From positions 62,001-126,000 of the IMG/VR virus record IMGVR_UViG_3300034050_000451: a DNA stretch of 64,000 nucleotides, one strand, 5' to 3'. The position numbers were made by a program, and so were the translations under genes. This stretch comes from a virus. The notes beneath the pieces were generated by a model. The model did no database searches and was not told the DNA's origin. It was given only the letters and a program-made list of their open reading frames with translations. Numbering within the stretch: position 1 is the stretch's first letter; every line of letters begins with the position of its first letter. Positions 2,819 to 47,681 of this stretch are shown piece after piece.

Positions 2819-4768
2819 TTATGCTATTTGAGTTACAGTCACAATTACCGATGGTGTTGCGGGTCTAGTTGGTGATACTTGCGTTCCTTTATATTGCAAT
2901 TGTCCGTTTGCGGTTGTTTTTGACCAATACAATTCTACATAACTTCCGGATGTAATTGGAGTTAAGAAGTTTAATGCTGCCACTTGGAATCCACCACCAC
3001 TTACCTTTTCAATAGAGAAATCCGTATTTGAATTAGCTATATTAGAACCTGTCATAGCAAACCAAACAGAAAAATCACACGACTCGTTTGAGGTGGTATG
3101 TAATTGTGCTGAAAATTGAATGTTATATAATCCGTTATTTTCTACATAAATTCTAGTTGGAAATCCACTACCATTATTACCAACATATATACCTTCAAAT
3201 TCAGGAACCGGCACTTCCAACTTCATAGCGTATGCCGTATTAGCAGAACCAGTTTGAGTTTCTAATGAAGCCCATTGTCCGTAGTTGAATTGTTTGTTAC
3301 CATCCTTATAGATAGAACCACTTACATATACTGAACCACTTATATATTGTGAACCATTAAATTGATTTGAACCAGTTGTTGGTAAATTACGAGCTCCATT
3401 TATACTACCTGTTAAATTAAAATTACCACTTTCTCCAAAAGTCCATTCTCTTAAAGGAGGTCCGGCTTTGATTTTCAATGTCTCATTTCCTACACCAAGT
3501 ATAATTTGTGAGTTTGGTGCTACATTTTCAGCCGAAGTTCCAATTCTAACCGAATAATTTTCATCATCCGCATATATTTCACCAAACCCATTATTTAATT
3601 TTAAGATACCATCATCACCTAATACTATACTATGTTCACCCACTTTAAGTTCTACAGAAGCATCTGAACCAAGTTGGTAATCTGGACTTTCTATAGTCAA
3701 AGGATATGCTGGATTAAGGGATACAGATGAACCAAATGCAATAGTTCTAAAAGACTCTCCAGATGGGACATAATTACCAGTTACCGTCCTTATTGTACCA
3801 TCATAAAATCTAATTATCCATCCATTTTGTACTCCACTACTTTCTGCATTATCAGCTACAATTAATCCACTACCATTCAAACCAGTACCACCATAATAGT
3901 CTTGTGCAATTGTTATTTGTGTACCAACTGTCTCAACACTACTACCTGAAATTATATTGCCTTCAAATGTTAAAGTAGAGTCCAACAATATGGATGTACC
4001 GGAAGTTCCACTTGTACCACTTTCACCGGATGTGCCACTTTCACCAGAAGTTCCAGATGTACCATCTACTCCACTCGTACCACTTTCGCCAGATGTGCCA
4101 CCATTTCCAGATAAACTTGTATAAGTTACTCCATTTAATATAATAGAACCAGTCATTAGTAAAGAACCAGTTAAATTAATATCACCATTAGTAATGTTTA
4201 ATGAACCAGAAGTTAATCCGCTACCCAATGAATTATATCCAATATTAATATCACTAGGAAAATAACTTTTACCATCATAATCAAATACCCAATTAGATTG
4301 GAATGAACCTGATTTTTGAACTAATATTGCTGCAGTAGGTCCATCTGAAACAGGATATGAATTTAATTGATTTGCAAAAAAGGATGCATCATCAGATACA
4401 TTCGTAGGATTAGTAATAGCTCCAATTAATAAAGTTCCATCAGATGTTAGAAATAGTGGAGCTCCATCAGAACCGGTTACTCTTAAACCAAAAGAAGGAC
4501 CTCCAATAAAATTTACGTCTCCTATTGTAAGTGAAATATCACCACTACCACTTATTGTTTGAGTTCCAGTAAAAACGTTAGAACCAGTTGTTGCCAACGA
4601 ATTACTATCTGCAAATACCGAAGTACCAGAAGTTCCATTTACACCCGATGTTCCAGATGTACCAGCTACACCAACTACATCAGGTAAGTGAGATAACGAT
4701 ACTTTACCATCACCATCTAACGGAGCGTATCCATTTACTTTTCCTCTATTTATTTTACTTTCAAACAT
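2819..4768 (-). CDS. Tail fibre-like protein with Gly-Thr-Ser collagen-like repeats
   Basis: A 649-residue protein typical of phage fibre or appendage subunits. Two blocks (about residues 33-55 and 220-260) are built of GTSG and GTSGES repeats, which keep glycine at every third position as in a collagen-like triple helix but with Thr/Ser/Glu instead of proline. Between and after them are SGS/TGS-rich beta segments (ISGSGDISLTIG, TGSLLMTGSIILNG) like those of other fibres in this window, and a C-terminal beta-sandwich-like region (about 510-649) resembling C1q/TNF-like trimeric knobs. The start MFESKINRGKVNGYAPLDG is the usual kind of fibre attachment peptide. It lies between the neck genes and a 2OG-Fe(II) oxygenase gene that it overlaps by 8 bases. 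The receptor is unknown. Confidence 0.7.
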   Translation of the reverse strand: MFESKINRGKVNGYAPLDGDGKVSLSHLPDVVGVAGTSGTSGVNGTSGTSVFADSNSLATTGSNVFTGTQTISGSGDISLTIGDVNFIGGPSFGLRVTGSDGAPLFLTSDGTLLIGAITNPTNVSDDASFFANQLNSYPVSDGPTAAILVQKSGSFQSNWVFDYDGKSYFPSDINIGYNSLGSGLTSGSLNITNGDINLTGSLLMTGSIILNGVTYTSLSGNGGTSGESGTSGVDGTSGTSGESGTSGESGTSGTSGTSILLDSTLTFEGNIISGSSVETVGTQITIAQDYYGGTGLNGSGLIVADNAESSGVQNGWIIRFYDGTIRTVTGNYVPSGESFRTIAFGSSVSLNPAYPLTIESPDYQLGSDASVELKVGEHSIVLGDDGILKLNNGFGEIYADDENYSVRIGTSAENVAPNSQIILGVGNETLKIKAGPPLREWTFGESGNFNLTGSINGARNLPTTGSNQFNGSQYISGSVYVSGSIYKDGNKQFNYGQWASLETQTGSANTAYAMKLEVPVPEFEGIYVGNNGSGFPTRIYVENNGLYNIQFSAQLHTTSNESCDFSVWFAMTGSNIANSNTDFSIEKVSGGGFQVAALNFLTPITSGSYVELYWSKTTANGQLQYKGTQVSPTRPATPSVIVTVTQIA

Positions 4769-28879: not shown

Positions 28880-28906
28880 TATATGATAATTATTTCTCTT
28901 ATACCA

Positions 28907-28915
28907 TATAAATAT
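28907..28915 (-). promoter_or_regulatory. Candidate late promoter motif
   Basis: ATATTTATA on the gene strand, 28 bases before the start of the 1490-residue protein, in line with late (virion) expression of that gene. Confidence 0.5.
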
Positions 28916-28937
28916 AATAATTTATTGTTTTAGTTTT

Positions 28938-29264
28938 TTATTTAGCCGCTTGCTCTTTAAAAGCTGGATTATAAGTAATAGTACCTTCTCTTAAATCGAT
29001 TTGACCTCTTGGGTATTCCTTTTCAAGACCAGCTACTAATTCTCTCATCGCATCATTTTGAGATTTAAAATCAGCTTCAGCTCTTTCTAAACCATCATGT
29101 AGTTTATCCATTTCTTCTTCTAATTCTTTTCTTCTCAAATAGATTTGCCCGAAAGCGTTTACTAATTCTTGAATTTTACCATTGCCTTCTCTTAGTGGAG
29201 TAAGGATATCTTCGGTTAATTCTACTGTAACTAACTCGATTTTTTGAATTGTTTCGTTTGCCAT
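28938..29264 (-). CDS. Small coiled-coil protein (paralogue of the protein at 33.8-34.1 kb)
   Basis: A 108-residue protein: a helical coiled coil (about residues 30-85, Glu/Lys/Arg-rich with RRKELEEEMDKL) followed by EYPRGQIDLREGTITY. The ending is nearly the same as KYPNGQIDLEAGTVVY in the protein at 33811-34083, and both carry QxxxRKxxL before the coiled coil, so the two are paralogues. They flank the sugar-transfer operon. Function unknown; the two could form a heterodimer or be alternative subunits of the same virion or assembly factor. A candidate late motif lies 36 bases upstream. Confidence 0.6.
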   Translation of the reverse strand: MANETIQKIELVTVELTEDILTPLREGNGKIQELVNAFGQIYLRRKELEEEMDKLHDGLERAEADFKSQNDAMRELVAGLEKEYPRGQIDLREGTITYNPAFKEQAAK

Positions 29265-29299
29265 TGTTTTTTTAATTAAAAATTGTTTTTGAATTCATA

Positions 29300-29308
29300 T
29301 ATAAATAT
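29300..29308 (-). promoter_or_regulatory. Candidate late promoter motif
   Basis: ATATTTATA on the gene strand, 36 bases before the coiled-coil gene at 28938, and only 3 bases from the end of the sugar kinase gene. Confidence 0.45.
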
Positions 29309-29310
29309 AT

Positions 29311-30063
29311 CTAACTGAAATTTTCAGAAATTACACTTACCCCACGTTTTTGTATAACCTGAGATGAACATCGATTTCCAAATATAATTGATTCATTAAT
29401 ATTATTTGTTTCCAAATACTTTGTAGTGAATCCTGCTACAAAAGTATCACCTGCTCCTGAGATATCCATTATCTCAACTTTATCAGTTGGATACATATTG
29501 TTTAAATACATACATCCATCTTTATCTAATGTGATTATTAGTTTTTCTAAAATCCATTCATTATTTTCAATAAATGATTTATTATTTTGATATTCGGTTC
29601 TGTTTAATTTAATGAACTTTAAATCAGTGCACCATTCTCCTAATTTTTTTTTAGTATCACAAATTGTATTAGGGTGATTAAATGCTATTTTAGCAATATC
29701 AGTATCACTTAGAAATCCTTTGTTATAATCCGATATGACTATCATATCAAAATCATAAAAATTTATTTCAGAAAGTGTATTACCAATAGGCGGAACTACA
29801 TCATCAATATCAACTCGTAAAAGTAAATGATTAAAACTTTCCTCAACATATCTCTTTTTTACAATCAATTGAGTATTACAAATCAATTCAGTTTTACAAC
29901 CCAATGCTTCTAAATTTTCTTTAACATTATAAGCCATACCACCATTGGTGATTGTATGTGATTCTATAAAAACAGGTGCAGGTCCTTCAGGTGATAATCG
30001 TGTAGCTTTTCCATAAACGAATTCATCTAAACATCCCTCACCTATAATTAATACTTTACTCAT
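29311..30063 (-). CDS. HldE-type heptose-7-phosphate kinase (PfkB family)
   Basis: A 250-residue ribokinase/PfkB-fold kinase most like the N-terminal half of HldE (RfaE), which phosphorylates D-glycero-beta-D-manno-heptose 7-phosphate at C1. Visible motifs are the sugar-binding GGMAYNV (41-47), SDYNKGFL (111-118; compare SDYGKG in HldE), LNRTEY and the catalytic/anion-hole DISGAGDTF (200-208, D206). It is shorter than the HldE kinase domain (about 320 residues), so part of the lid is reduced. It overlaps the nucleotidyltransferase gene by 8 bases, the reverse of the single fused HldE of bacteria. Together the pair would make an activated heptose (ADP or CDP form). Other sugars are possible since the family is broad. 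Confidence 0.72.
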   Translation of the reverse strand: MSKVLIIGEGCLDEFVYGKATRLSPEGPAPVFIESHTITNGGMAYNVKENLEALGCKTELICNTQLIVKKRYVEESFNHLLLRVDIDDVVPPIGNTLSEINFYDFDMIVISDYNKGFLSDTDIAKIAFNHPNTICDTKKKLGEWCTDLKFIKLNRTEYQNNKSFIENNEWILEKLIITLDKDGCMYLNNMYPTDKVEIMDISGAGDTFVAGFTTKYLETNNINESIIFGNRCSSQVIQKRGVSVISENFS

Positions 30064-30445
30064 TTGTTAATATTTTAGTTGTACTGAAATCATCCATTCG
30101 ATTAAAATACACAATTGATTTTGCGTATTGTTCTCCCACTATTGGTTTATTTTTATAATCAGACCCAATTACAAATATATCAGGGTTATATGTTTTAATT
30201 ACATTTTCTAATAATTCAGCTGAATCAAATATAACTACTTTACTAACTCCTTTAATTCTTTCCAAATTATACTTTCGTTCTTCTTCAGTATGGAACGGTC
30301 TATCTTCTCCTTTTAATTCCTTTACTCTCCTATCGGAATCAATTCCAATAATAACAATATCACCAAAGGCAGATGCGAACTCAATCATCTTAAAATGCGC
30401 ATGATGTAAAACATCAAAACATCCATTTAACCAAACCTTTTTCAT
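30056..30445 (-). CDS. HldE-type sugar nucleotidyltransferase (split C-terminal half)
   Basis: A 129-residue cytidylyltransferase-like protein matching the C-terminal domain of HldE, which adds AMP to heptose 1-phosphate. It has NGCFDVLHHAHFKMIEFA (the HxGH nucleotide-binding site, here HHAH at 14-17 with Ala in place of Gly), GIDSDRRVKELKG, RPFHTEEER, and the final STTKIL (compare STT-I-I in HldE). The Gly-to-Ala change in HxGH is unusual and could lower or change activity; glycerol-3-phosphate cytidylyltransferase is the main alternative family. The start overlaps the heptosyltransferase gene by 4 bases (ATGA), and its end overlaps the kinase gene by 8. Confidence 0.75.
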   Translation of the reverse strand: MKKVWLNGCFDVLHHAHFKMIEFASAFGDIVIIGIDSDRRVKELKGEDRPFHTEEERKYNLERIKGVSKVVIFDSAELLENVIKTYNPDIFVIGSDYKNKPIVGEQYAKSIVYFNRMDDFSTTKILTNE

Positions 30446-31593
30446 AGAAACTTTTCTAATTCATTAATAACCATCTGAGATGTAATTGCTTTAGTACATT
30501 CAAATTGCCTATCCGTACCTTTATGGTCTGGACACCAATTCCAATCACCAGCATCTAATTTTAATCGGTTAAAGCATCCACCACATTTATCTTTAGGTGA
30601 AGTTATTCTAACACAATCTTGCATTTCTGCCCAATCATATGAGAATCCACTAATCAATACCGTCTTTGTACCCAATGCCCAACTTAACCAACTTAACCCA
30701 CTACCAATACCAATGAATGCTTTTGATTTTCTCATTTCATCCATTACTTTTTCCAAAGAACCGGCTGGGTGTTTGACTACTCCAGTTGGGTGTTTATTAC
30801 CCATATAATCATTATTCTCTTGTGATAATAGTTTAACTGTATAACCTTTATCATTTAACCAATTCACTACTTCTTGCCAACCATTTGGGTTATTCCAATA
30901 CTTAGATTGAGCAGTTCCATGTATTGCTATTGTTATTAACTTATCATCTTTAACAATATCTGATGATGGTAACTTTGGTTTTATTTCTTTATATGGTAAT
31001 CCCAATATATCAGAACCCATTTTTTGCATTGTTTGGGATTTAAAATCGTTTGGATTTTTTCTGTTATTTACACTACCATCTTCATTATAGAATAAACCAA
31101 CAGTATACATTGCGTATAAATTTTCAACACTTTGACCTGGTTTTACAAATTCTATATTTGGATATTGTGACTCTAACATTTCGTTATGAAATGTAGATAC
31201 AATTAATTCACAATTATGTACTTTCTGAAATTCGTCAAAGTATGGAAACCATGCTAATGTATCACCCAATGCTTTTGATGATAGTGCTAGATAAACTCTC
31301 TTATTAGTTGCGGTATAATCATGTTCAAAAAATAAAGTATTACCTTCCCATATTTCAATTCTCCAATCTATAAAATACTCAATATTACATTTAGCCCAAG
31401 TATTGTTTGATAATTCGGTTGTGAATAAAACATTACCATTACGTTTGTTTATAAACTTAACATTGTATTTACCCGTTTGGTTTCCCAATACTTCAGCCCA
31501 AGGACCATTTACGAAATGATAATTTACTTTATTTCGTACTTCAACAATGTTATTTAAATTTTTAGTTAATTTATCGTAAATCATTAATTCCAT
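30442..31593 (-). CDS. Autotransporter-type O-heptosyltransferase (BAHT/TibC-like, GT9-related)
   Basis: A 383-residue protein resembling bacterial autotransporter heptosyltransferases (TibC, Aah), which move heptose from ADP-heptose onto Ser residues of a protein. Features: a beta-rich N-terminal domain (1-97), YLALSSKALGDTLAWFPYF at 101-119 with the conserved Asp111 in the place of the TibC catalytic Asp (from memory), a GT-B C-terminal domain with AIHGTAQSKYWNN and IGIGSGLSWLSWALGTK, and a C-terminal metal finger formed by C337, C340, C354 and C366 (KCGGC, WNWC, FEC), the hallmark of this family. The neighbours that make an activated heptose support the call. A start at Met4 (31584) is also possible and would nearly remove the 10-base overlap with the upstream gene. 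The acceptor protein is not known. Confidence 0.75.
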   Translation of the reverse strand: MELMIYDKLTKNLNNIVEVRNKVNYHFVNGPWAEVLGNQTGKYNVKFINKRNGNVLFTTELSNNTWAKCNIEYFIDWRIEIWEGNTLFFEHDYTATNKRVYLALSSKALGDTLAWFPYFDEFQKVHNCELIVSTFHNEMLESQYPNIEFVKPGQSVENLYAMYTVGLFYNEDGSVNNRKNPNDFKSQTMQKMGSDILGLPYKEIKPKLPSSDIVKDDKLITIAIHGTAQSKYWNNPNGWQEVVNWLNDKGYTVKLLSQENNDYMGNKHPTGVVKHPAGSLEKVMDEMRKSKAFIGIGSGLSWLSWALGTKTVLISGFSYDWAEMQDCVRITSPKDKCGGCFNRLKLDAGDWNWCPDHKGTDRQFECTKAITSQMVINELEKFL

Positions 31594-33746
31594 TTTTTTA
31601 CTTCTCTATCAATAAGAGAAAATCCATCTGCTTGTTTAACATACATTTTATTTGTAGTATATCGTAATTTAGATTCTTTATTAAACACATCAGTTAACCA
31701 TAAATCATATCCCTCCCATAGGGTATCATTAAATCTATCAATCCACCAACTCTTTGTTCTATTTGGTATTAGATACGCATGTGCTAAATCTTGGTTTGAT
31801 GCAGTTTTACTGAATAAATCATCAATGTATTCTTTACTTCTGGAATTATTGTTTGATAATCCAATAAAGTAAACATCATCTCTTTCAGAAATAAAACATG
31901 CTTTATGAACTGCTTCAACAAATTCTTTTAATCCAGTGAATATAAACGCATCAGCTTCAAATACTAATGTATAATCAAATTCATCATCCATAGCTTCTAA
32001 TGCTCCCCTATGTGCGTTAAAGCACCCATAATGCCTACCCGTTAATGGACCTAATCCATTCCCAAAGTTTCCCGGCTTATCCGATATCTGATTTGGTCTT
32101 TTACAAAAATCAGATGGTGGTGTTCCATCAAATGGAGTATTTACAATTGGTTGATACACCATTCCATAACTTTCCAATTGTTTTAGTGATTCTGAACTAA
32201 TTTGTTCTCTCAAATCATTTGGCTTAGTCATCAAATGTTTAATTTGAATCTTTGGTTTTTTTCTAACAAATGAACGATATACGTGCTTTGCTTGATTATA
32301 AAAAAATTCATCAGCTGCTCTAGTAACCCCCGGAAAGAAACTTCCACCATAATCATCTCCACTAATAACACCACCCGGTTTTACTTTATGATACCAAAAG
32401 TTTAAATCGGATTTTAAAGAATCATAAGTATGACCCGCATCCAACATAATAAAATCAATTGAGTTATGTTGAAATTGATTTGATGCGTTTTCAGATGTAT
32501 CCTTTATTACGTTAAATAATTTTGAGTTATTACTTAACATAGTATTTTCCATAAATTCTGAAAATATATCCCCACCAAATCCACCAACTATTGTATCATG
32601 TATTTCTTCACCATCGGTACCTTTCCAAGTATCAACAGTTGTAAATTTAATATCTTTATTAGAATCTTTAATTAAGGTAGCCATATGATTGGTTGATTTA
32701 CCCAACCATGCACCCAACTCAACAAATACATCACCATCGGTTCCATTTTCAACCATTTCATTATACAAATGTTCATATGAAAACCAACCAGGAATTTCAT
32801 TAAATTCAGGTTGTAGTTTTTCTAATATAATTTGTTTGGTTTGATTTAGGTTATCATCGATATAAGTAACCAATTCATTATTATCATATGAATCCAAATA
32901 TGTGTGTAGTTTTCTGAATATAGATGGTAATCCATATCCCAATGCCTCTTTAATAGATAATGGATTTAATTCCAATTTAGAACTAAAGTAAAACATATCC
33001 GATGCTTTGTAGAATTTATCTACATCACTACGTTCACCCCATACAATACAATTATCAGGTTTGTGTTTCATTATTGGTCCCCAATATGATTCAAAGTTCA
33101 TAGCTTGGTTTCCGATAAAATGAAATTTAATTTTATATTTTTCTAATAATCTAGCTACGTTGAATATTTCACCCTGATTCTTACCTTCAGTAAATAATCC
33201 AACCATAAGAACATGCTTCCAATCAGATTCAAATCCCAATTCGTTTTTGAATTCGTTTTTATCATACTCAATAGTTTCTATTGGATAATCCCATACACGT
33301 GTATCTACTCCCACCAATTCAAATCTTCGTCTACTCCATTCAGATACTAAAACATATCTATCTGGATGATATTTGATTTCATTTGGATTTGTATGAGAAC
33401 CATGTGTAGATGCTACAATATAGTAATTTCTACTATTGTCAAAAATAGTATCTAATATATTGTGAGCTAAAAAATGTTCGGGGATTTCCGTAAAATGAAT
33501 TATGTTTGGTTGAGTTGATTTAATAATATCCACAAGTTCGGATTTATTATCACCCAATGTGTACAACTTACATAAATCAGCTATTTGATTCTTTTGTACT
33601 ACAAAGGCATCACCAGAGTGATTGTTTACCTCAACTACCTCAATATCAAATTTATCTTTAAAGATTTGAATTTGCTTTAAAAGGTATTGTGGCATCCCAC
33701 CAGTTGAGAGATGGGATGCTATATATAACAATTTTTGTTTTGACAT
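31584..33746 (-). CDS. Fusion of GT4 glycosyltransferase, methyltransferase and GT25-like transferase
   Basis: A 720-residue three-part enzyme. Residues 1-310: GT-B glycosyltransferase of GT4 type (LLYIASHLSTGGMPQYLLKQ, VLMVGLFTEGKNQ, and an EX7E-type site ELNPLSIKEALGYGLPS at 259-275). Residues 325-490: class I SAM methyltransferase (FVELGAWLGKST 342-352, VDTWKG, DFIMLDAGHTYDS 431-443, KPGGVISGDDY). Residues about 515-720: a GT25/LPS-type transferase (GPLTGRHYGCFNAHRGALEA, FEADAFIF 597-604 as metal site). It is the first gene of the sugar operon, with its own promoter at 33772-33803. The combination would build and methylate a glycan, or work in steps after a first heptose is added. Confidence 0.75.
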   Translation of the reverse strand: MSKQKLLYIASHLSTGGMPQYLLKQIQIFKDKFDIEVVEVNNHSGDAFVVQKNQIADLCKLYTLGDNKSELVDIIKSTQPNIIHFTEIPEHFLAHNILDTIFDNSRNYYIVASTHGSHTNPNEIKYHPDRYVLVSEWSRRRFELVGVDTRVWDYPIETIEYDKNEFKNELGFESDWKHVLMVGLFTEGKNQGEIFNVARLLEKYKIKFHFIGNQAMNFESYWGPIMKHKPDNCIVWGERSDVDKFYKASDMFYFSSKLELNPLSIKEALGYGLPSIFRKLHTYLDSYDNNELVTYIDDNLNQTKQIILEKLQPEFNEIPGWFSYEHLYNEMVENGTDGDVFVELGAWLGKSTNHMATLIKDSNKDIKFTTVDTWKGTDGEEIHDTIVGGFGGDIFSEFMENTMLSNNSKLFNVIKDTSENASNQFQHNSIDFIMLDAGHTYDSLKSDLNFWYHKVKPGGVISGDDYGGSFFPGVTRAADEFFYNQAKHVYRSFVRKKPKIQIKHLMTKPNDLREQISSESLKQLESYGMVYQPIVNTPFDGTPPSDFCKRPNQISDKPGNFGNGLGPLTGRHYGCFNAHRGALEAMDDEFDYTLVFEADAFIFTGLKEFVEAVHKACFISERDDVYFIGLSNNNSRSKEYIDDLFSKTASNQDLAHAYLIPNRTKSWWIDRFNDTLWEGYDLWLTDVFNKESKLRYTTNKMYVKQADGFSLIDREVKKWN

Positions 33747-33771
33747 AACTTATTTATATGTTCATATCTTA

Positions 33772-33803
33772 CAAAGATACAAAATTAATTTGGTATTTCC
33801 AAA
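33772..33803 (-). promoter_or_regulatory. Bacteroidota-type promoter of the sugar operon
   Basis: On the gene strand TTTG (33803-33800), a 20-base spacer and TATCTTTG (33779-33772) match the consensus TTTG-N19-21-TAnnTTTG of the Bacteroidota primary sigma factor exactly. The -7 box lies 26 bases before the ATG at 33746. This differs from the motif before virion genes and points to transcription by the unmodified host RNA polymerase. Confidence 0.75.
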
Positions 33804-33810
33804 TTATTTA

Positions 33811-34083
33811 TTAATAAACTACCGTCCCAGCTTCTAAATCAATTTGTCCATTTGGATATTTAATATCCAATTCAGCAAGTTCGGTATTCATATCAGCAAT
33901 AGATTTATCGATTCTATTACCAAATTCTTTTTCTTGAGATTCAATATCTGCAATTTGAGATTGTAATTGTCTTTTACGAACAGCCGATTGTCCCAATGCA
34001 ATAATCATATTGTTTTGTTCTTCTTGAATTGATTTTAATTTATCAATTACCGATTGTTCTAATTGTTCAGTTTTTTGTTCCAT
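33811..34083 (-). CDS. Small coiled-coil protein (paralogue of the protein at 28.9-29.3 kb)
   Basis: A 90-residue protein: helical from residue 5 to about 70, with QSAVRKRQLQSQIADIES in the centre, then DIKYPNGQIDLEAGTVVY at the very end. The ending and the basic centre match the 108-residue protein on the other side of the sugar operon. Candidate late motif at 34108-34116, 25 bases before the start. The protein ends at the conserved VVY, lacking the extra 10 residues of its paralogue. Role unknown. Confidence 0.6.
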   Translation of the reverse strand: MEQKTEQLEQSVIDKLKSIQEEQNNMIIALGQSAVRKRQLQSQIADIESQEKEFGNRIDKSIADMNTELAELDIKYPNGQIDLEAGTVVY

Positions 34084-34107
34084 AATTATTGTGTTTGTAT
34101 ATTCATA

Positions 34108-34116
34108 TATAAGTAT
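34108..34116 (-). promoter_or_regulatory. Candidate late promoter motif (C variant)
   Basis: ATACTTATA on the gene strand, 25 bases before the coiled-coil gene at 33811. Confidence 0.45.
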
Positions 34117-34138
34117 ATACTTTTTTATTTAAACGAAA

Positions 34139-34525
34139 TTATTCAGGTTGTATTGGGTAAATATATGGAGTTGTATTTGTAATATCTCGTAATGCTTGTC
34201 TATAAGTTGCCCACTCCAATTTCTTTTCAGCTGATAGTGGTGAATCATTAAATTGAGTCCAATCGGATTCAGATAATAGATTATTTCGTTTCAGTCTAAC
34301 CGTAAATAAATCCCGTTCAGCTTGTTCATCATTAGTAAGTGGGTTTTTAGTATGTACACTATTTACATATTTACATCGAGTACTAATTGCCTCTTGCCAC
34401 TCATCATAGGTGAGTTCAATTCGATTTTCCGTAGGAATATACTTAATATCCCAAACATCAGTTGGGTAAAATCCAGTGTAATTCCCATCAGAATCGTATG
34501 TTGCAAAAATTTGTCTTTCAGTCAT
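34139..34525 (-). CDS. Phage tail fibre assembly chaperone-like protein
   Basis: A 128-residue protein with the motif LLSESDWTQ (83-91) followed by DSPLS and YRQALRDI (108-115), the signature of tail assembly chaperone proteins of the Phage_tail_APC type. The N-terminal half (DGNYTGFYPTDVW) is a short beta domain that often binds fibre ends in this family. It lies 26 bases downstream of the giant fibre gene, the usual place for a fibre chaperone, so it probably helps that fibre fold or trimerise. Confidence 0.75.
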   Translation of the reverse strand: MTERQIFATYDSDGNYTGFYPTDVWDIKYIPTENRIELTYDEWQEAISTRCKYVNSVHTKNPLTNDEQAERDLFTVRLKRNNLLSESDWTQFNDSPLSAEKKLEWATYRQALRDITNTTPYIYPIQPE

Positions 34526-34551
34526 AATTTAATTTTAATTAATATAATATA

Positions 34552-37500
34552 TTATCCCGTTGGAAGATTACCAATAGCTATCCAATACCCATCAACACTA
34601 TCTAATACTAAACTAACACCAGATGTGGTAAGGTTATATATATGATTATATCCATTTGAACCATTTGAACTTCTATAAGATGCACAAGTTACAACCGGTG
34701 GTGAACCAAATGTTACAGGGAATGTTACGTTAGCAGAACTATTTATTCTTCCCCATTGTATAATACTACCATCTGATAATTTTTGGTAATTATTTGTAGA
34801 CATTGAACTAGCAACCGTATTTGTTTGGTGTTGGTTTCCTAATCCAATAAGGTTATCGGTATAAGTATATGCAAACCTATTTGATGAGTTACCAATATTG
34901 TACAATGAATCAGATTCAGGTATAATATCACCCTTTGAATTAATAGCTGTTGAGGTATCAACCCCAAGACCAACTGTTTTTTCAAAATATGATATACCAC
35001 CGGCTGCTTTAAGTACTTCTTGATTAGCTGAACCTGCTGGTTTTCTTGGTATTCTAACATAGGTATCAGGTGTTGATACTACTTGAATACCACCGGCTTT
35101 AATCTCAACGAAATTGGATGGAACAGATACATTTAATATAGTATCGTATGTTGGTGTATTTGCTAAAGTTGGCCCAACAGTATGTGATTGGTATGTAAAT
35201 GAATATGAATTAATACTGGAACCAATATTTGCTCTTTGACCCGAATACCCATAAAATCTAATTGAATATCTAAATCTAATATTACCAGTAGATGTTAGAT
35301 TCATTGAGCGCGTTACACCAGTTTGGGCAGAAACATTATTTTGATAACCACTTATAGTGTTGGTTGAAATATATGTCCAAGTACCATCATTATGTGATAT
35401 AATATCATCTGAAACATAGTTATGAACTCCAGGTACAGAAAATGTATATACCCATTCATCGGTTTTAATAATTTCAACACTATCAACTAATACCAATTTA
35501 ATACCATTACCATCTTTGATGTTAATCATACTTTTACCAGCAACTAATTCAACAGTCTTTATTTGTTTATTATCGTTTAACCAAAATCCATGCGAATCAG
35601 ATACTCTAATAGTTTTACCACCGGCTGATACTTTGTAAACTTTATCAACTTTTCTCTTTTTAATTTTAGCTATTTCAAATTCACTAAATTTGTTTACTTC
35701 AGTATTATCTAATTTATCATTCCAACTCCATGCTATTATTTTTTCACCTTCAACAACATCTTTAGCAAGAATAGTTTCACCAGATGATAATATAATTTTA
35801 GTATCACCAGTTACGGATACAAAACTTTCAAGTTTTACGTTGTGGGTTAATATACCATTAACATAATAAGTATGCTTACCAGATACTCTAATGTTATAAA
35901 CATCATCGGTTTTCTCATTTATAGTTATTGATGTTATCTCAACTTCTTCATTTTCTGAATTTAGGAATATATCTCCAACATTTATTTTATCAGTTGTTTT
36001 AATACACCAAACACCATTTTGTTTAATAATATGTTTGTGTGAGTGTGTACATTCAATTAATCCATTATTTATATTGTAAATTTCATTATCAGCATATGAT
36101 TTGATATCCAACACCTCTTCAATTGTTTTTTCGGAATCGGATATATGGGTTGCAGTCCAATCATTTTCTTCGGAATATTTTGGTGTTAATGAATCAATAT
36201 CTAATGATTTAATAAAATCACCAATTTGAATATCTTTAATTTGTTTGAATGAACCATCACCCATTTCAATTAGTGATGTTCCAACTAAACACGTTCCACC
36301 TCCCCCTTCTTCTATATATTCTCCGGTATAATAATTACCAGCATTATATGAACTAACAGCTGCGGCTGTTCCAAGTAAAGTTCTACCCACAACAACACCA
36401 GTAGAAATATTAACTGCTTCTAAATTTAATTCTGCGTATGCAACAGATGGTGATGAATACCCACCATGGAATTGCCCATTGAATGTAGGTAAATACGATG
36501 GGTATGATGTGGTATGACTAACTCCTGCTGGAATTGATACAGATACGGCTGGTATATTTAGTGCAACTTCAAGTGCTCCTGCTGCTGTAACATTATATGA
36601 ACCCGTTGATGGTAATGATACCATATAACTCGAATAAACAAAATTGGCATTAGATGTATTTGTTGTTACCGATTGTGGTGTTGGATATACAACCCCCGAA
36701 CCCGTAAACTGAAAGTATTTAACATCACCTGTGGTTGTTGTTAATTCATTTGAAGGTGATATAATTACCTTTTTTTCACTACCAGTATAAAATTGTAATT
36801 CAGGTAAAGATGGGTCAAATATTATTTCACTATTATCATCACGTAAATTACCACTATCAGCATCAATAATCCAATCTCCGATTCTACCATCAGTTGCGTT
36901 AATACTACCAGATAAACCTGCATTATTAGCGTTTACATTTCCATTAGCATCAACAGTAAAATTATATCTAATTGGATTTGAACCAGAAATTATTCCTATG
37001 TTAATAGCTCCTCCATTTATTTCAGAACCATTAATTGTTGAACCTTGAACGTTTCCTGAGAAATTAACACCATCACCCGTATAGTTCAAATATGCACCAT
37101 CTTTACTTCGTAATGAGAATAACGGGTCATCTGACCCAGATGGAAATCCTAAAAATACACCAACCTCATCAAAACTTTGACTTAATTGCCCCATTGAAAG
37201 GTATGGTTTATCGGATTGATTTAATGTTGAACCTGATGTTGATAATCGCAATCCCTCACCAGAAATTATTCTAAATTCACGACTACCCGCTGATAATGAA
37301 CCTTGTGTATATGTGTAATCACCATTGGTATTGGGATAATAATAAGAGGCACTTGCGGCGGAATTAAATTTAATTGTTTGACCATATGGATTTGATGCTG
37401 ATAGAAATAATCGAGTTTCATCTTCAGAAATTCCATAAATTTTCATTGCAGGGAAATTCAAAACATTACCAATACCCAATACAGCTACATCAAATGCTTT

Positions 37501-40500
37501 TATAATATGAGATTTTAAATCACTTGGTACTTCTGGATATGCACTTTCAGGTTGGTCATAAAGTAATTCTTGTATAAAATCATAATATGATAATGGAAAA
37601 TCACCAGTTTGCCTTACTTCTAAATAATTTGCACCAGATGGCCATGCAATATATGAGTCTAAAGAAGAAGATACGACTTGCAGTGATGATGTTGTGTGGA
37701 ATGCAATTTGATAAGATGAACTATCTGCATATAATCCATTTGATAAAAATAATTTTGAATTACCAATTTCACTATTACTTGCACTATTACTTGCGCTTAA
37801 TATTCTATGATTCGTAGTAAGTGTACCAAATACCGTTAAAAGTGCAGAACCACTACCATCAAATGGATTAGGTCCTTTAAGTGCTCTATTTGCTCCAAAA
37901 CCTACTAGATTATTCAACCCAGCATATACATCATTATGTAGAGATGCTGTTACTTCCGTATTATATTGATATCCAACGGGGAATGTAGTTGGGAAGTAGA
38001 TACCAGATGGGTCAATTATCCATCCACCAAATTTACCAGCAGATGCTGATACAATACCAGATACATTTAATTCATTTCCATCCCAACGTAAGTGTCTTGT
38101 ACCATCACCATTTTCAATTGATAATAATCCAGTTGTTCCAGCAGTTCCAGTAGGTCCACCATCTTCAGTTACACCAATATAAACTCCCTTTTGTCCATAA
38201 CCTTGAATTGATTGTCCGATTGATATATATGGTTCACTATCTCCACCATAAATTGTAATTTGTGGATTAACATCATATGAAGTTGCTGGTGAACCTACAT
38301 TAATTGTATTTTTAATAAATGATTCTTCGAAGATACCAATCTTAGCTGCTACAAAGAAATCTTCTTCTCCTAACTCTTCCCAATAATCAGTTTGAGTATT
38401 AGGTTGTTTGGCGCCAATTAAAGTATATCCAGAGGGTACAGTATCAATTGATTGAGTATATAATCCAGAAACAGTATTTGATAAATAAGTATGAGGACCC
38501 GATGGTAATTTAGTTGCGTAATACATCTCAGGTGTACCATCTCCATTCTTATCAAATAAAACTGCATCTCTCCTTTTCTGATTTAAATCAAAAAGATAAT
38601 TAGTTGAACCACTCCACTCTCCTCTAAATACAACACCAGGACCAGTTGCTCCTTCAAATACTGTTGTTAATGATTGTGATAAGAAATAAGTTGCTCTACC
38701 ATTTTCTATATCAACTTTATAAACAATTGTAGCTGCTTTATTATCTTGTGGATTTGCCCAAGTTTGAATTGGTGCCACCGTAGCAGGACTTCCTGTTGGT
38801 CGATTTGTTTGAGTTATAAATCCGGGTTTACTATATAATGATGCTGAGAATTCTCCCAATGTACCAATAACATTACCAATTAAATCTAATGTTTCCTCAG
38901 AGTAAGTACTAACATGCGTTAATTCAGTAGTTCCTTTAAATGCTCTAATTTGTGTACCAGTACCAGTTAACGTTGTACTTCCATCAGTTTCAACTAATAC
39001 AGCAGTTGCTGGATTTGTTAATGAAACTTGATAGTTATCAGCTCCCGCTTTTATACCAGTAATAGTTACTTCAGATGTAGCAATTACCCCAGAGGTAGTA
39101 TTACCATCTCTAATTTGAACTTGCCATGTTGCATTTTCGCCAGGAGATGTAGCATCACCGGAACCAATTTCAAATACATTATCAGTACTAATTGTACTAT
39201 AAGCAAATCCATCTTTAAAATATTGGTAATAAGTTTGAGATGCGGTAACATTAAATGCAGTTGCCGTTAAAAATATTGAATCTAAGGGAGAAGTTACTAC
39301 ACCATCTCCATCAAAATTAACTACTAATGATGATGCAGCCAAACTAACCGAACGAGCATTTACTCCTTCTTTTTGTTTTGTAAAAGATTGTGTACGAGTT
39401 ACATATTGTGAACCAGTTACAATACCATTTGTAATTGAAAATGGTCTTATTAAAATTGAATAATCAATACTAGCTGAATCATCCGTCATATTACTCATTG
39501 ATACAAATAACATTGTATCATTTAACCCATTATCAGTTGTTTCCGTTTTTGATGCAGTTAATAAACCAACAGTAATATTATTTACCGAAATAGATGCGGT
39601 AAATGTTCCTGGTAATTCTTGTGAATTAAACTCTAAATATTCATCACCTTGCTTAACTTTTAAAGTTGTGTTTGTTGTTGTGTAATCATATACACCACCA
39701 TTTTCATCAGCAGATAACGCGAGTATTGTTGGGGCTAATTCAATATTGATTGCAGCTGCCCCATCAACACTTTTTTGGAATTGTTGAAAGAAACTTTGTG
39801 TATAATAAGATGCGGTATAGAATGGATGAATTTCTAATTTATATTCAACACTAGCGGTTAAATCAGTCATATTGCTAAATCCACTTATACTCATAGATGC
39901 ATCTCCCATTATTTCATCAAAGGTAGAATATTGAATTCCTTTTGTAATAATAGATGCAGTTGTAAATGTACCCGGTTTTTTACTACTTGTAAATATAAGT
40001 GGTAAGAATCCCTGCGTTATAGTAATATCCGTAGCTGCTGTTTCATAACTAAATACTCTACCTCTTTGGTCAGCATTTAAAGTTATTGGATTTGGATTAA
40101 TTTTTACTACAATTGCATCATCACCCGGGTCTCCATCGGGTACAGATACGAATGTTTTATCAATACTAATAGATGCTGATGTATAATCTTCTAAATAAGT
40201 AAATTTAGTACTTAATTGTTTTGTTTGAACTGCTTCATAAAATGGAATACCATTTTGACCGGGAATACCACTATTAATTATATTATTATCAAAATCCGTT
40301 ACCTCAACACTAATTCTTCTATCAAATGTACCGGTAACATAAAACATATAGTAATATGGTTCAATTGTTTCCGGGTCAACAGACATCGATGGGAATATAT
40401 TCAATGTACCACTTATAGGTGCTTCGTTTGTTCCTCTCAAATAGAATGAACCAGTTACTCTACCAATATTTGGAGTAAACTCTCTTTCGGTTCTTGATTT

Positions 40501-42921
40501 AATACCAAATTGTTCGGTATCGATTGGTATAAATCCAGATGCTAAACCATCTTGTAAATCGGTTAGGATAATTGAAGTTAAAATATCATTTTGAGTTGGA
40601 CCATCCATAAGGAAAACCGTCAACTCCCCATCAATAGAATCTCTATTAAATGTTGCGTTATAATTCAACTCACCACTACCAGTTGTACCAGCTTTTAATC
40701 CTCTAATAAATCCACTACTACTTGCTTCAGATAATAGATAATATGATGATGTTGGTTGTCCTAATGGTGTTAATGATGATGATAATACTCTTAACTTTGC
40801 ATCGGAGAATCCAATTTGTGGTAATCCATTTTTTAATATAATTTCATTTGTACCATCAATACGAATAGCTTGTAGTTCTAAATCGTTATCAGAACTATTC
40901 TTTATAAATGTTCCTCTATAAGGTCTAATTTCAAAGTTTACACCACCCTTACCATCAGCAACTCTTGTAATTACAACTTCATCAGTTACTCCTTCTACTT
41001 CTCCAGTAAATCTGATATATTGTACAGTGATATCATTTCTAGAACCAGTAAAATTAGAAACGTTTAATGTTGGAGTAAGTGTGTTTATATTATTTAATAA
41101 ACCCGGATATCTTCCACCAATATATTCAGATGGTAATATATAATCACCAAACTCATCATAGGCACCAGACGTATATGTGATTGAACCAGTTATTACACTT
41201 GTTTCAACATTAAATATAATTGTAGTTGGTGGTAATGGATTAGCAGGTGCAGATGCGGAATCAAACGCAAAATATAATTGATTTGGTGTAATTGTAAGAC
41301 TCTTATTATAAAGATTCAAATTACCACCATCAAATGTTTTTGTTTTTTCTACTGCTACTGGAATGTAATTATTGTTAATATCGTAGAATTCAAAACGATA
41401 ATCAAATGTTTCTTTTTGTAATGTTTTTGGTACAGTTTGTACAAATGTTATTTCATCAGGTGAAAATGAAGTTTCTTGCGATGCTTTAAAACTAATATCA
41501 CTTATATACCAATCACTTCCCTTAACTTCAAAATATAATCTAGCATTATCAAAATCATTAGCTATAATATTTTCACTTAAGTTTACTTTTTGTAATACTG
41601 AAGTTGATGAATCAATTGTAGTAATTGTTTGAGATGTAGGTGTTCCATTTAATGAACCACTTAAAAATACTTTAATAAAATCACCAGTTGTATTTTGTGA
41701 TTTTCTTGCATTTAAATTTAATGTATATTCAACACCTTGTTGGATACTTAAACTTTGAGTTGTATAAAAATACGTTCCCGCATTTGAATTTATTTTGGCC
41801 GAATTAAATAAGAAATCTCTATTAAATTCAACCGAAACTGCATTTGATGAGGTTAACCAATAATTATCTAACCTAATATCAGTTAAATTACCATAGTATT
41901 CTTCAGTAGCAGTTACAGTTTCAATATCTCTTAATAATTCATTAGATTCTAATTGTAAATCTTGAACAAATTCATAATCAGTAAGATTTGATTGAGAACG
42001 TCTAAATACTTTAACTCTTGCCGCATCACCAACGAATGTTTTCATATCGGTGATATTGATTTTTGCAAATGAACCAGTAAGTGCAGTTGCTAAATCAGAA
42101 ACCCCCTCCAAATAATTGAATGTTACTGAGTAGTTTTGATTTGTAAATGATTTTACAATACCATTTTGAGAATATGGTGTAGTTACTATAATTTCAGTAT
42201 CGCTTACAATATCATCAATTATACTACTATAATTTAAGCTATCTACCGTAATAGTTTGACCAACAACAGACCCTGTCCAATTATCACCACTAGCTACATT
42301 TAATCTGTATGATGTTGGTAATGTGAATCCCGTTAATTTTGCGTTTTCATTTGGTACTAAAGGAACACCATTAACAGTACCTGTCTTAGTTATTGCTAAT
42401 GAATTATTATTAAAAATTGGTTTATTTATTTCAGTAATCTCAACTTGAGGTCTACGATAAAATCTAACTCTATCTTCATTGGCAAGGTTTTTATTAACTT
42501 GAAAAGTTCTTTCCCATTTAACATTATATGCACCCTTCCATTCAGCAGGAATATCTCTTGTTACACCATTGTCAACATATTGATTAAGTTCACCTAATAC
42601 AGTAACTTTACCTAATCCAATTGGAGTATCTTCATAAATGTAAACTGCTATTAGTTTGGAAATTCCTTCATAATATTCAGGTATACCATTTCCAGGTTCG
42701 TAATAGATAGGGTCACCATTAACATCTAATATTTCAATTTTGATTTCAGTAGATGGTTGCAAGTATTGCGAACCTTCAATTAGGAATCCATTTTTACCAC
42801 CTGTAAACGTATCATTAAATTCAGTAATTCTGAAATAATCCGAATTTGGGTTATTATCTATTACAAATGTACCAAATGATGATAAATTTTGTTCTGGTGA
42901 ATATTTTTTAATTCTAGCCAT
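34552..42921 (-). CDS. Giant tail fibre protein with two tandem Hint (intein-like) domains
   Basis: A 2789-residue fibre. Most of residues 1-2200 consist of repeated beta-sandwich modules (several copies with DNxxITVELKINP-like and SFSNMTDLTASVEY-like strands), then a region of GSGSLL/SGS beta repeats. Residues 2211-2361 form a Hint domain: C2211 in CLVGTSLIEMGDG, a block-B ECTHSHKH and the end YYVNGILTHN (H2360, N2361) followed by Val. A second Hint domain, 2369-2511, starts with Ser in SVTGDTKIIL, has RVSDSHGFW and ends YVSDDIISHN (H2510, N2511) followed by Asp. Neither has a Cys/Ser/Thr at the +1 position, so they look like self-cleaving intein-like domains rather than standard inteins. 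After them a tip (2512-2789) ends in DGSIIQWGRINSS, a gp53-like fibre end. Chaperone gene follows. Confidence 0.75.
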   Translation of the reverse strand: MARIKKYSPEQNLSSFGTFVIDNNPNSDYFRITEFNDTFTGGKNGFLIEGSQYLQPSTEIKIEILDVNGDPIYYEPGNGIPEYYEGISKLIAVYIYEDTPIGLGKVTVLGELNQYVDNGVTRDIPAEWKGAYNVKWERTFQVNKNLANEDRVRFYRRPQVEITEINKPIFNNNSLAITKTGTVNGVPLVPNENAKLTGFTLPTSYRLNVASGDNWTGSVVGQTITVDSLNYSSIIDDIVSDTEIIVTTPYSQNGIVKSFTNQNYSVTFNYLEGVSDLATALTGSFAKINITDMKTFVGDAARVKVFRRSQSNLTDYEFVQDLQLESNELLRDIETVTATEEYYGNLTDIRLDNYWLTSSNAVSVEFNRDFLFNSAKINSNAGTYFYTTQSLSIQQGVEYTLNLNARKSQNTTGDFIKVFLSGSLNGTPTSQTITTIDSSTSVLQKVNLSENIIANDFDNARLYFEVKGSDWYISDISFKASQETSFSPDEITFVQTVPKTLQKETFDYRFEFYDINNNYIPVAVEKTKTFDGGNLNLYNKSLTITPNQLYFAFDSASAPANPLPPTTIIFNVETSVITGSITYTSGAYDEFGDYILPSEYIGGRYPGLLNNINTLTPTLNVSNFTGSRNDITVQYIRFTGEVEGVTDEVVITRVADGKGGVNFEIRPYRGTFIKNSSDNDLELQAIRIDGTNEIILKNGLPQIGFSDAKLRVLSSSLTPLGQPTSSYYLLSEASSSGFIRGLKAGTTGSGELNYNATFNRDSIDGELTVFLMDGPTQNDILTSIILTDLQDGLASGFIPIDTEQFGIKSRTEREFTPNIGRVTGSFYLRGTNEAPISGTLNIFPSMSVDPETIEPYYYMFYVTGTFDRRISVEVTDFDNNIINSGIPGQNGIPFYEAVQTKQLSTKFTYLEDYTSASISIDKTFVSVPDGDPGDDAIVVKINPNPITLNADQRGRVFSYETAATDITITQGFLPLIFTSSKKPGTFTTASIITKGIQYSTFDEIMGDASMSISGFSNMTDLTASVEYKLEIHPFYTASYYTQSFFQQFQKSVDGAAAINIELAPTILALSADENGGVYDYTTTNTTLKVKQGDEYLEFNSQELPGTFTASISVNNITVGLLTASKTETTDNGLNDTMLFVSMSNMTDDSASIDYSILIRPFSITNGIVTGSQYVTRTQSFTKQKEGVNARSVSLAASSLVVNFDGDGVVTSPLDSIFLTATAFNVTASQTYYQYFKDGFAYSTISTDNVFEIGSGDATSPGENATWQVQIRDGNTTSGVIATSEVTITGIKAGADNYQVSLTNPATAVLVETDGSTTLTGTGTQIRAFKGTTELTHVSTYSEETLDLIGNVIGTLGEFSASLYSKPGFITQTNRPTGSPATVAPIQTWANPQDNKAATIVYKVDIENGRATYFLSQSLTTVFEGATGPGVVFRGEWSGSTNYLFDLNQKRRDAVLFDKNGDGTPEMYYATKLPSGPHTYLSNTVSGLYTQSIDTVPSGYTLIGAKQPNTQTDYWEELGEEDFFVAAKIGIFEESFIKNTINVGSPATSYDVNPQITIYGGDSEPYISIGQSIQGYGQKGVYIGVTEDGGPTGTAGTTGLLSIENGDGTRHLRWDGNELNVSGIVSASAGKFGGWIIDPSGIYFPTTFPVGYQYNTEVTASLHNDVYAGLNNLVGFGANRALKGPNPFDGSGSALLTVFGTLTTNHRILSASNSASNSEIGNSKLFLSNGLYADSSSYQIAFHTTSSLQVVSSSLDSYIAWPSGANYLEVRQTGDFPLSYYDFIQELLYDQPESAYPEVPSDLKSHIIKAFDVAVLGIGNVLNFPAMKIYGISEDETRLFLSASNPYGQTIKFNSAASASYYYPNTNGDYTYTQGSLSAGSREFRIISGEGLRLSTSGSTLNQSDKPYLSMGQLSQSFDEVGVFLGFPSGSDDPLFSLRSKDGAYLNYTGDGVNFSGNVQGSTINGSEINGGAINIGIISGSNPIRYNFTVDANGNVNANNAGLSGSINATDGRIGDWIIDADSGNLRDDNSEIIFDPSLPELQFYTGSEKKVIISPSNELTTTTGDVKYFQFTGSGVVYPTPQSVTTNTSNANFVYSSYMVSLPSTGSYNVTAAGALEVALNIPAVSVSIPAGVSHTTSYPSYLPTFNGQFHGGYSSPSVAYAELNLEAVNISTGVVVGRTLLGTAAAVSSYNAGNYYTGEYIEEGGGGTCLVGTSLIEMGDGSFKQIKDIQIGDFIKSLDIDSLTPKYSEENDWTATHISDSEKTIEEVLDIKSYADNEIYNINNGLIECTHSHKHIIKQNGVWCIKTTDKINVGDIFLNSENEEVEITSITINEKTDDVYNIRVSGKHTYYVNGILTHNVKLESFVSVTGDTKIILSSGETILAKDVVEGEKIIAWSWNDKLDNTEVNKFSEFEIAKIKKRKVDKVYKVSAGGKTIRVSDSHGFWLNDNKQIKTVELVAGKSMINIKDGNGIKLVLVDSVEIIKTDEWVYTFSVPGVHNYVSDDIISHNDGTWTYISTNTISGYQNNVSAQTGVTRSMNLTSTGNIRFRYSIRFYGYSGQRANIGSSINSYSFTYQSHTVGPTLANTPTYDTILNVSVPSNFVEIKAGGIQVVSTPDTYVRIPRKPAGSANQEVLKAAGGISYFEKTVGLGVDTSTAINSKGDIIPESDSLYNIGNSSNRFAYTYTDNLIGLGNQHQTNTVASSMSTNNYQKLSDGSIIQWGRINSSANVTFPVTFGSPPVVTCASYRSSNGSNGYNHIYNLTTSGVSLVLDSVDGYWIAIGNLPTG
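35390..36291 (-). other. Tandem Hint domains within the fibre gene
   Basis: The two Hint domains are encoded side by side: the first from 36291 (Cys2211) to 35839 (Asn2361), the second from about 35817 (Ser2369) to 35389 (Asn2511), with seven residues between them. Domain lengths (151 and 143 residues) equal that of mini-inteins or bacterial intein-like domains without a homing endonuclease. Sequence similarity between the two is low, so they did not arise by recent duplication. Flanks are a Gly-rich extein end (EEGGGGT) and DGTWTYIS. Confidence 0.75.
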
Positions 42922-42950
42922 TTAACTAAGATTTCTTTGTTGTTTCTCTT

Positions 42951-42959
42951 TATAAGTAT
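42951..42959 (-). promoter_or_regulatory. Candidate late promoter motif of the fibre gene
   Basis: ATACTTATA on the gene strand, 30 bases before the fibre ATG. A near copy (ATACTTATT) in the opposite direction lies at 42979-42987, 52 bases before the rightward gene at 43039, so this gap may hold two divergent promoters. Confidence 0.5.
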
Positions 42960-43038
42960 TTGTATTTTTTAAATATACATACTTATTCTAAAGAAAACTA
43001 AAGAGTTCTAAAGAATGGTTAGTTTAATACGATAAATT

Positions 43039-43212
43039 ATGAATAAGAAATATGCTATGTTACAAATTGATGCTGAGGTTCATCAATTGTTAAAAGATTT
43101 TTGTAAAGATAAGGGTTATAAAATGAATGGGTTGGTTGAGAGTCTAATTAAAGATAAAGTATCCCCATTTAAAACTCAACAACCAACCAATATTTTAAGA
43201 ACTAGAACTTAA
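43039..43212 (+). CDS. Ribbon-helix-helix (Arc/CopG-like) small DNA-binding protein
   Basis: A 57-residue protein, the only rightward gene I can support. MNKKYAMLQIDAEVHQLLKD begins with a short beta strand (YAMLQID) followed by two helices (DAEVHQLLKDFCKDKG and MNGLVESLIKDK), the exact pattern of ribbon-helix-helix repressors, which bind DNA as dimers through the strand. The C-terminal tail is basic (NILRTRT). The gene meets the nuclease gene end to end with an 11-base convergent overlap. A phage transcription regulator is likely; possible targets are the repeated AAAATTTTCCA sites at 47565-47678, but that is only a guess. Confidence 0.65.
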   Translation: MNKKYAMLQIDAEVHQLLKDFCKDKGYKMNGLVESLIKDKVSPFKTQQPTNILRTRT

Positions 43213-47553: not shown

Positions 47554-47681
47554 CAAATATACGAAAAATTTCCCAGTATACCAAATATTTTTGATAAAAT
47601 TTTCCACTATAAATTGATTTAAGTACAAATATAGTGAAAATTTTCCATTATACCAAGTCTTTTCGGTAAAATTTTCCACTA
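47554..47681 (-). promoter_or_regulatory. Duplicated promoter/operator region (two 56-bp units)
   Basis: Two units of 56 bases (47554-47609 and 47626-47681, period 72, about 47 of 56 bases equal) each contain a Bacteroidota-type promoter on the gene strand: TTTG-N20-TATATTTG (boxes at 47585-47582 and 47561-47554) and CTTG-N20-TATATTTG (47657-47654 and 47633-47626). The plus-strand word AAAATTTTCCA occurs exactly at 47596, 47637 and 47668 and with one change at 47565, two per unit and 31 bases apart within each. This looks like paired promoters with four operator sites before the 66-residue gene. Confidence 0.65.

Follow-up and report, generated by a model that had tools for sequence, protein, structure and literature searches.

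A candidate virion-glycosylation cassette with a TibC-type transferase in a large phage, and its link to proline-free collagen-like repeats

We analyzed a 64,000-nucleotide window (positions 62001-126000 of the 270,865-bp IMG/VR virus record IMGVR_UViG_3300034050_000451) that contains a cassette of four genes coding, in order, for a fusion of GT4, methyltransferase and GT25-type domains, a transferase of the BAHT family, to which the autotransporter enzyme TibC belongs, and two small proteins resembling the separated halves of HldE. On balance (probability about 0.58) we consider the cassette to be a virion-glycosylation module for heptose-type O-glycosylation of collagen-like fibre shafts, with the glycan probably being extended and methylated. 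The four open reading frames (ORFs) are all open, lie on the minus strand between a giant tail-fibre gene and the packaging genes (Table 1), and overlap by exactly 10, 4 and 8 bases, as an initial annotation of this DNA had described.

The second gene product looks like a TibC-type protein glycosyltransferase in its predicted fold and chemistry. It scored 285.6 bits against TIGR04414 (equivalog cut-off 200) and matched TibC at 3.4e-55 in a phmmer search, whereas its scores against models of the lipopolysaccharide (LPS) heptosyltransferases WaaC/WaaF (GT9) were far under cut-off (29.7 versus 185.3 bits). The predicted structure (predicted local distance difference test, pLDDT, 87.8) contains the TibC protomer fold, i.e. 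an N-terminal beta-barrel followed by a GT-B domain, and superposes on TibC (4rap) with a template modelling (TM) score of 0.86 and a root-mean-square deviation of 2.4 Å, compared with a TM score of ~0.45 for WaaC. The four finger cysteines correspond to C339, C342, C358 and C370 of TibC; this finger, which the dodecameric ring of TibC-type enzymes needs, is conserved here and shows no variation among 52 homologues or in either clade of the BAHT tree described below, and D111 and K231 are likewise invariant across the 52 sequences. The catalytic base of TibC, D110, and its residues T226, K230 and W305 (PMC4358343) correspond to D111, T227, K231 and W302, all of which are invariant in 47/47 rows of the phage clade. 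The initial annotation had proposed a TibC-like transferase with a four-cysteine finger, and this is supported; in phylogeny, too, the enzyme stands apart from GT9 enzymes that act on LPS only. With support of 100/100, the BAHT tree separates an autotransporter clade (48 rows) from a phage clade of 47 rows, 38 of them from phages and 9 'bacterial'.

The phage clade is linked both physically and statistically to proline-free collagen-like repeats. Neighbours of its BAHT genes repeatedly hold Gly-[Ser/Thr]-[Ser/Thr/Ala] triplets, and the clade includes six bacterial loci on contigs with ordinary bacterial genes (two from Methylobacter, two from Methylococcaceae, one from Polaromonas and one from a gammaproteobacterium); three contigs of metagenome-assembled genomes labelled bacterial (L086, L089 and L104) resemble phage contigs in their tail genes and were left out of the bacterial count. 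A repeat gene stood directly beside BAHT in 6/6 of these bacterial loci, five of them by a strict rule (8-172 bp) and the sixth with a neighbour containing GTN/GTS triplets, compared with 0/71 autotransporter-clade loci (p = 3e-7 for 5/6 versus 0/71). For a positive control we looked beside an autotransporter-clade enzyme, whose neighbour carried TIGR04415, the known heptosylation target repeat (a strand-loop-strand repeat), while the three phage-clade bacterial neighbours tested matched Pfam Collagen and not TIGR04415. Two observations in the bacterial loci stand on their own. In Methylococcaceae there is a two-gene unit, for which we found no description: the first gene encodes a secreted-looking protein in which GTS/GTA repeats separate small conserved domains, and the second is BAHT. 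In Methylobacter luteus the repeat protein lies at L085:6935-7798 and BAHT at L085:7839-9137. A Gluconacetobacter protein (L128:9141-11480) beside an autotransporter-clade BAHT has weak O-heptosylation target repeats and a Hint_2 domain.

We also performed the reciprocal test, in which the sole criterion for picking viral contigs was that they code for eight G-[ST]-[ST] triplets in a row. This gave 46 records, three of which code Cys-containing repeats and were removed and used as decoys, leaving 43 with true Ser/Thr repeats. BAHT was present in 22/43 of these and in 0/32 records with Gly-Pro-X repeats and 0/3 decoys (Fisher p = 7e-8), although the Gly-Pro-X pattern is partly palindromic, so that not every one of these controls need be a true collagen; Gly-Pro-X records were rejected as BAHT carriers. 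The BAHTs of the repeat-picked records formed 19 clusters at 70% identity with a median pairwise identity of 38%, i.e. they are not one lineage, and the repeat gene lay no more than about 8 kb from BAHT in 13/20. Among larger phage records, repeats were found in 14/20 with BAHT and 1/11 without (p = 0.0015; the records differ in length and are not independent of one another). The complete BAHT-positive genomes Mel-JY01 and LR756501 contained 43 and 1642 repeat matches respectively, while eight complete BAHT-negative genomes contained no genuine Ser/Thr repeat. The proposal in the initial annotation that a virion protein is the acceptor therefore gains statistical support, by way of the collagen-like repeats.

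Three G-[ST]-[ST] codon triplets in a row occur 302 times in the phage record itself, all on one strand, while the reversed pattern used as a control has no match. Two collagen-like giants lie outside the window with a fibre-chaperone-like ORF between them: the first (record 26246-38029) has 3927 residues, a Collagen match of 6.6e-54 and a Peptidase_S74 chaperone domain, and the second (record about 40104-45000) has more than 1631 residues, being truncated at the end of the sequence retrieved, with 49% Ser/Thr and 334 triplets. The triplets of the giant fibres are nearly all GTS and GSS, with Ser at most Y positions and no proline at X or Y. Within the window there is a single short Gly-Thr-Ser block, in a 649-residue ORF whose Collagen match falls slightly under cut-off, and this is the only collagen-like candidate acceptor there. 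Fibres very rich in Ser/Thr, which the initial annotation had placed in the window, thus do exist in this phage, but outside it.

The proposed mechanism is as follows. Where present, the HldE halves would carry out the two ATP-dependent steps towards a nucleotide-activated D,D-heptose, the isomerase and phosphatase steps would be supplied by the host, and the host may also supply the activated heptose itself. The TibC-fold enzyme would add the first sugar, most likely D-glycero-D-manno-heptose, to Ser/Thr of the proline-free (Gly-Thr/Ser-Ser)n triplets of giant tail fibres, after which its GT4-methyltransferase-GT25 partner would lengthen and methylate the glycan. The resulting sugar sheath would stabilize or shield the long proline-free shafts. 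More tentatively, and at slightly less than even odds, this may be one instance of an undescribed and widespread glycosylation, in which a TibC-fold clade, possibly untied from ADP, O-glycosylates proline-free collagen-like shafts of phage fibres and of the secreted proteins of a few bacteria, with an extended methylated coat replacing stabilization by proline/hydroxyproline.

Several observations weigh against glycosylation of collagen-like shafts by this cassette. Some 50 kb separate the cassette of this phage from its collagen-like fibres, and the fibre that adjoins the cassette is without such repeats. No BAHT was found in 21/43 of the repeat-bearing records, most of them fragments; conversely, the complete BAHT-positive genome LR756504, whose enzyme is divergent, has no such repeats, and nor do several BAHT-positive fragments. 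As the records are mostly fragments these absences are soft. The co-occurrence could partly reflect common phage ancestry (the statistics are uncorrected for phylogeny). Finally, in the sequence alignment R286 of TibC is replaced by V283.

The acceptor could instead be the adjacent 2789-residue fibre or another virion protein, in which case the link to the repeats would be indirect, arising because both are common in large aquatic phages. A fibre of this type lies upstream of the cassette in 17/17 loci reaching that far, so the cassette does travel with tail-fibre genes, a point that the initial annotation had raised. Residues 1-1650 of the fibre are conserved among BAHT-positive relatives, while the C-terminal part is variable; BAHT-positive fibres align over residues 1-1648, whereas the homologue in a BAHT-negative relative (L278, 120 kb, which has no GTS repeats either) is conserved mainly over residues 1-659, although this comparison involves one BAHT-negative record. 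An adjacent-fibre acceptor would explain neither why bacteria have BAHT and a repeat gene directly side by side nor the enrichment across BAHTs that are only 38% identical, and we consider it improbable. As a separate observation, the 2789-residue fibre holds two tandem Hint/intein-like domains (window 35380-36312, minus strand, residues about 2204-2514), with matches to Pfam Intein_splicing (8.5e-8), PT-HINT and Hint and to NCBIfam intein N- and C-terminal regions. Each domain ends in HN and the next residue is not Cys, Ser or Thr; the domains may thus be expected to cleave and not to splice.

The partner enzyme is the most constant companion of the transferase. Its GT4 (PF00534, 1.2e-10) and Methyltransf_24 (2e-18) domains were found directly, and a PDB sequence search with the whole protein gave no match. 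The GT25 match of the C-terminal domain is weak alone (E 0.058), but 16/17 homologues of the fusion match GT25, at best with 1.9e-5, and the model of this domain (pLDDT 84) is closest to the GT25 collagen galactosyltransferase COLGALT1 (Foldseek 1.7e-5). Because few GT25 structures exist, the word 'collagen' in the name of COLGALT1 is no evidence on the acceptor. Domain searches, homologues and fold thus agree with the three-part fusion first recognized in the initial annotation. The fusion directly precedes BAHT in 42/42 unique loci reaching that far, a pairing that excludes chance, and the methyltransferase domain is present in 35/35 unique loci. In other phages BAHT is itself fused to GT4, sometimes with methyltransferase domains as well, which fits a single multi-step module. 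One BAHT-containing ORF of 1375 residues (L609:1187-5314) has, as an observation in its own right, an intein-like stretch at residues 274-608 (Intein_splicing 3.5e-7).

The HldE halves are less constant. The kinase scored 116.9 bits against the HldE domain I model (TIGR02198, cut-off 345) and the nucleotidyltransferase 100.7 bits against the domain II model (TIGR02199, cut-off 181.5); from these scores both appear related to HldE but divergent, and they are members of PHROG 8133/7878. Directly 3' of BAHT, 25/45 unique loci had both halves, 2 had only the nucleotidyltransferase, and 18 had neither half. Since both halves are missing from those 18 loci, the four genes were rejected as a fixed unit: the initial annotation had suggested looking for the four-gene set in other phages, and what recurs is the fusion with the transferase, the HldE halves being optional. 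Three whole BAHT-positive records (133, 111 and 136 kb), possibly incomplete, yielded no HldE kinase, and a search of the phage record for GmhA found none. Both proteins keep motifs of their families (GAGD, within SGAGDTF, in the kinase and STT in the nucleotidyltransferase). The suggestion that the Ala of HHAH and the short kinase mark a specialized activity is not supported: HHAH is found in this phage and a few close relatives while most orthologues of the same phage group have HxGH, i.e. it is within-family variation, and the short split kinase also occurs in 31 cyanophage records.

The donor might also be something other than ADP-heptose, if a switch of nucleotide or sugar has taken place in the clade and HldE serves another branch. 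In TibC, Arg-286 contacts adenine N1 of ADP-heptose and an alanine mutant loses most activity (PMC4358343). This residue is Arg in 48/48 autotransporter-clade rows but Val, Ile or Leu in most of the 47 phage-clade rows, with Arg in 2, so that ADP as the donor nucleotide is not assured for the phage clade. A different donor would also fit the loci without HldE genes and the occurrence of the HldE kinase without BAHT, both in cyanophages and in record L232, where it lies beside other sugar genes. However, the Thr, Lys, Trp and base are invariant, the HldE halves lie directly downstream of BAHT in more than half of the loci, and the nucleotidyltransferase is without the GRSTT motif reported for CTP/UTP use (PMC11573728). 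We regard a switched donor, which would be compatible with a collagen-like acceptor, as plausible but rather unlikely. A strand-loop-strand acceptor of the autotransporter type was rejected, as TIGR04415 had no match in the two window proteins tested. Because Arg-286 and this acceptor were both tested and neither was found, we class the phage enzymes, on sequence, as a sister clade of BAHT and not as autotransporter BAHT proper.

A scan of viral contigs gave 166 relatives. In the closest group the gene order is giant fibre, fibre chaperone (in some), small coiled-coil protein, fusion and BAHT, followed by the optional nucleotidyltransferase and kinase, a second small coiled-coil protein, the large multi-domain protein and terminase. 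In a sister group (terminase ~60% identical) the chaperone is followed directly by the 1490-residue-type gene without a cassette, and other enzyme genes lie before the chaperone. In relatives with terminases 78-81% identical the site holds ORFs that by eye, with no domain search, resemble NAD-dependent epimerases and half-transketolases, plus ORFs of ~480 residues, and BAHT is absent from the whole records of those relatives carrying other genes at the site. The cassette site is therefore a swap site for sugar cassettes. In BAHT-negative L278 (1075-2691, equivalent to L310:1868-3484) it is filled by a 538-residue ORF that by eye is GroEL-like.

A cassette of sugar genes might also alter the host surface (LPS or an adhesin), blocking superinfection or changing a receptor, rather than act on the virion. 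GT4 and GT25 domains also work in LPS synthesis. Phage glycosyltransferases can modify O-antigen (PMC7029224), but the enzyme here is TibC-like and not LPS-heptosyltransferase-like, the cassette has fibres as neighbours within the late structural region, and its clade is associated with virion repeat proteins. A host-surface target thus seems very unlikely, and modification of collagen-like fibre shafts is the reading we prefer.

Table 1. Features discussed in the text (window positions, unless a record is named).
Feature	Position	Strand	Residues, motifs or matches
GT4 - S-adenosylmethionine methyltransferase (Methyltransf_24) - GT25-type fusion, 720 residues, first cassette gene	31584..33746	-	
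BAHT/TibC-type O-heptosyltransferase (predicted), 383 residues	30442..31593	-	D111, T227, K231, W302; C337 C340 C354 C366; V283
HldE domain II-like nucleotidyltransferase (heptose-1-P adenylyltransferase half), 129 residues, optional	30056..30445	-	HHAH, STT
HldE domain I-like short PfkB kinase (heptose-7-P kinase half), 250 residues, optional	29311..30063	-	SGAGDTF
Small coiled-coil-like protein, 90 residues, conserved upstream flank of cassette	33811..34083	-	
Small coiled-coil-like protein, 108 residues, conserved downstream flank of cassette, distant relative of the 90-residue protein	28938..29264	-	
Tail-fibre assembly chaperone (Phage_tail_APC)	34139..34525	-	
Giant tail fibre, 2789 residues, second candidate acceptor	34552..42921	-	
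649-residue protein with collagen-like block GTSGESGTSGVDGTSGTSGESGTSGESGTSGTSGTS (about 3992-4099)	2819..4768	-	PF01391 6.9e-6
1490-residue multi-domain protein, NadR/CTP-transferase-like N-terminal domain and GNAT domain	24407-28879		
Methylococcaceae two-gene unit	L085:6935-9137, L088:6990-9146, L090:6917-9137, L091:6907-9146		
Relatives with sugar-type genes upstream of the 1490-residue homologue	L232, L234, L237, L246, L254, L290, L299, L301		

The 1490-residue protein keeps both of its ends across relatives, while its middle is variable. Elsewhere in the window, a 153-residue ORF beside the primase gene (47648-48109) matches homing-endonuclease PHROGs and one annotated NAD synthetase. 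By terminase the nearest cultured phages are Microcystis phage Mel-JY01 (56%) and Flavobacterium phage immuto (55%). Shine-Dalgarno-like sites precede 11/45 genes against a background of 15%, and upstream regions are A-rich; a Bacteroidota host is a guess with which this Shine-Dalgarno use is compatible, though it is not proof.

Virus-encoded heptose enzymes are known but their roles are unexplained (PMC11573728), and among open-licence papers we found none that connects BAHT to phages, and none that connects collagen-like proteins to heptosyltransferases. Phage protein glycosylation has been documented in few cases, and the present analysis offers a concrete enzyme-acceptor pair with a simple repeated substrate; as the pair is present in cultured Mel-JY01 and in cultured Methylobacter, its chemistry is directly checkable. 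If correct, the proposal would explain the long proline-free Gly-Thr-Ser/Gly-Ser-Ser repeats of many large aquatic phages, would give a role to virus-encoded heptose-activation genes, and would put a recombinant glyco-collagen system on offer.

Of the known systems, the autotransporter BAHTs TibC and AAH (TIGR04414; PMC4358343) are alike in fold, in the catalytic Asp, the Thr/Lys phosphate contacts, the Trp and the four-Cys iron finger, and in having heptose-activation genes as partners. They differ in that the phage enzymes form a separate clade, mostly without the adenine-contacting Arg, have collagen-like repeats or phage fibres as neighbours instead of strand-loop-strand autotransporters, and are paired or fused with GT4, methyltransferase and GT25 domains. 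The T4-like cyanophages P-SSM2, S-SM2 and S-CAM1 (PHROG 8133, 7878) also have a separate short PfkB kinase (≤48% identical) and nucleotidyltransferase (≤47%), but no BAHT was found in them, P-SSM2 and S-SM2 are without GTS repeats, and these two have an annotated phosphoheptose isomerase. In mycobacteriophage Che8 phage-encoded glycosyltransferases have been tied to virion-protein glycans (Freeman et al. 2023, cited in PMC11256854); there the glycans are on the capsid, and no mention is made there of BAHT, heptose genes or a collagen-like acceptor. BclA and the mimivirus collagens (PMC8968730) are likewise surface or virion proteins with sugars on their collagen-like Gly-X-Y repeats, and glycosylation of the bacterial collagen-like BclA is thought to aid hydration networks (PMC8968730); the GT25 domain described here is in turn COLGALT1-like. 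The present system differs from these in its Gly-Ser/Thr-Ser triplets without proline, in a linking enzyme that is TibC-like, and in an acceptor that would be Ser/Thr and not hydroxylysine.

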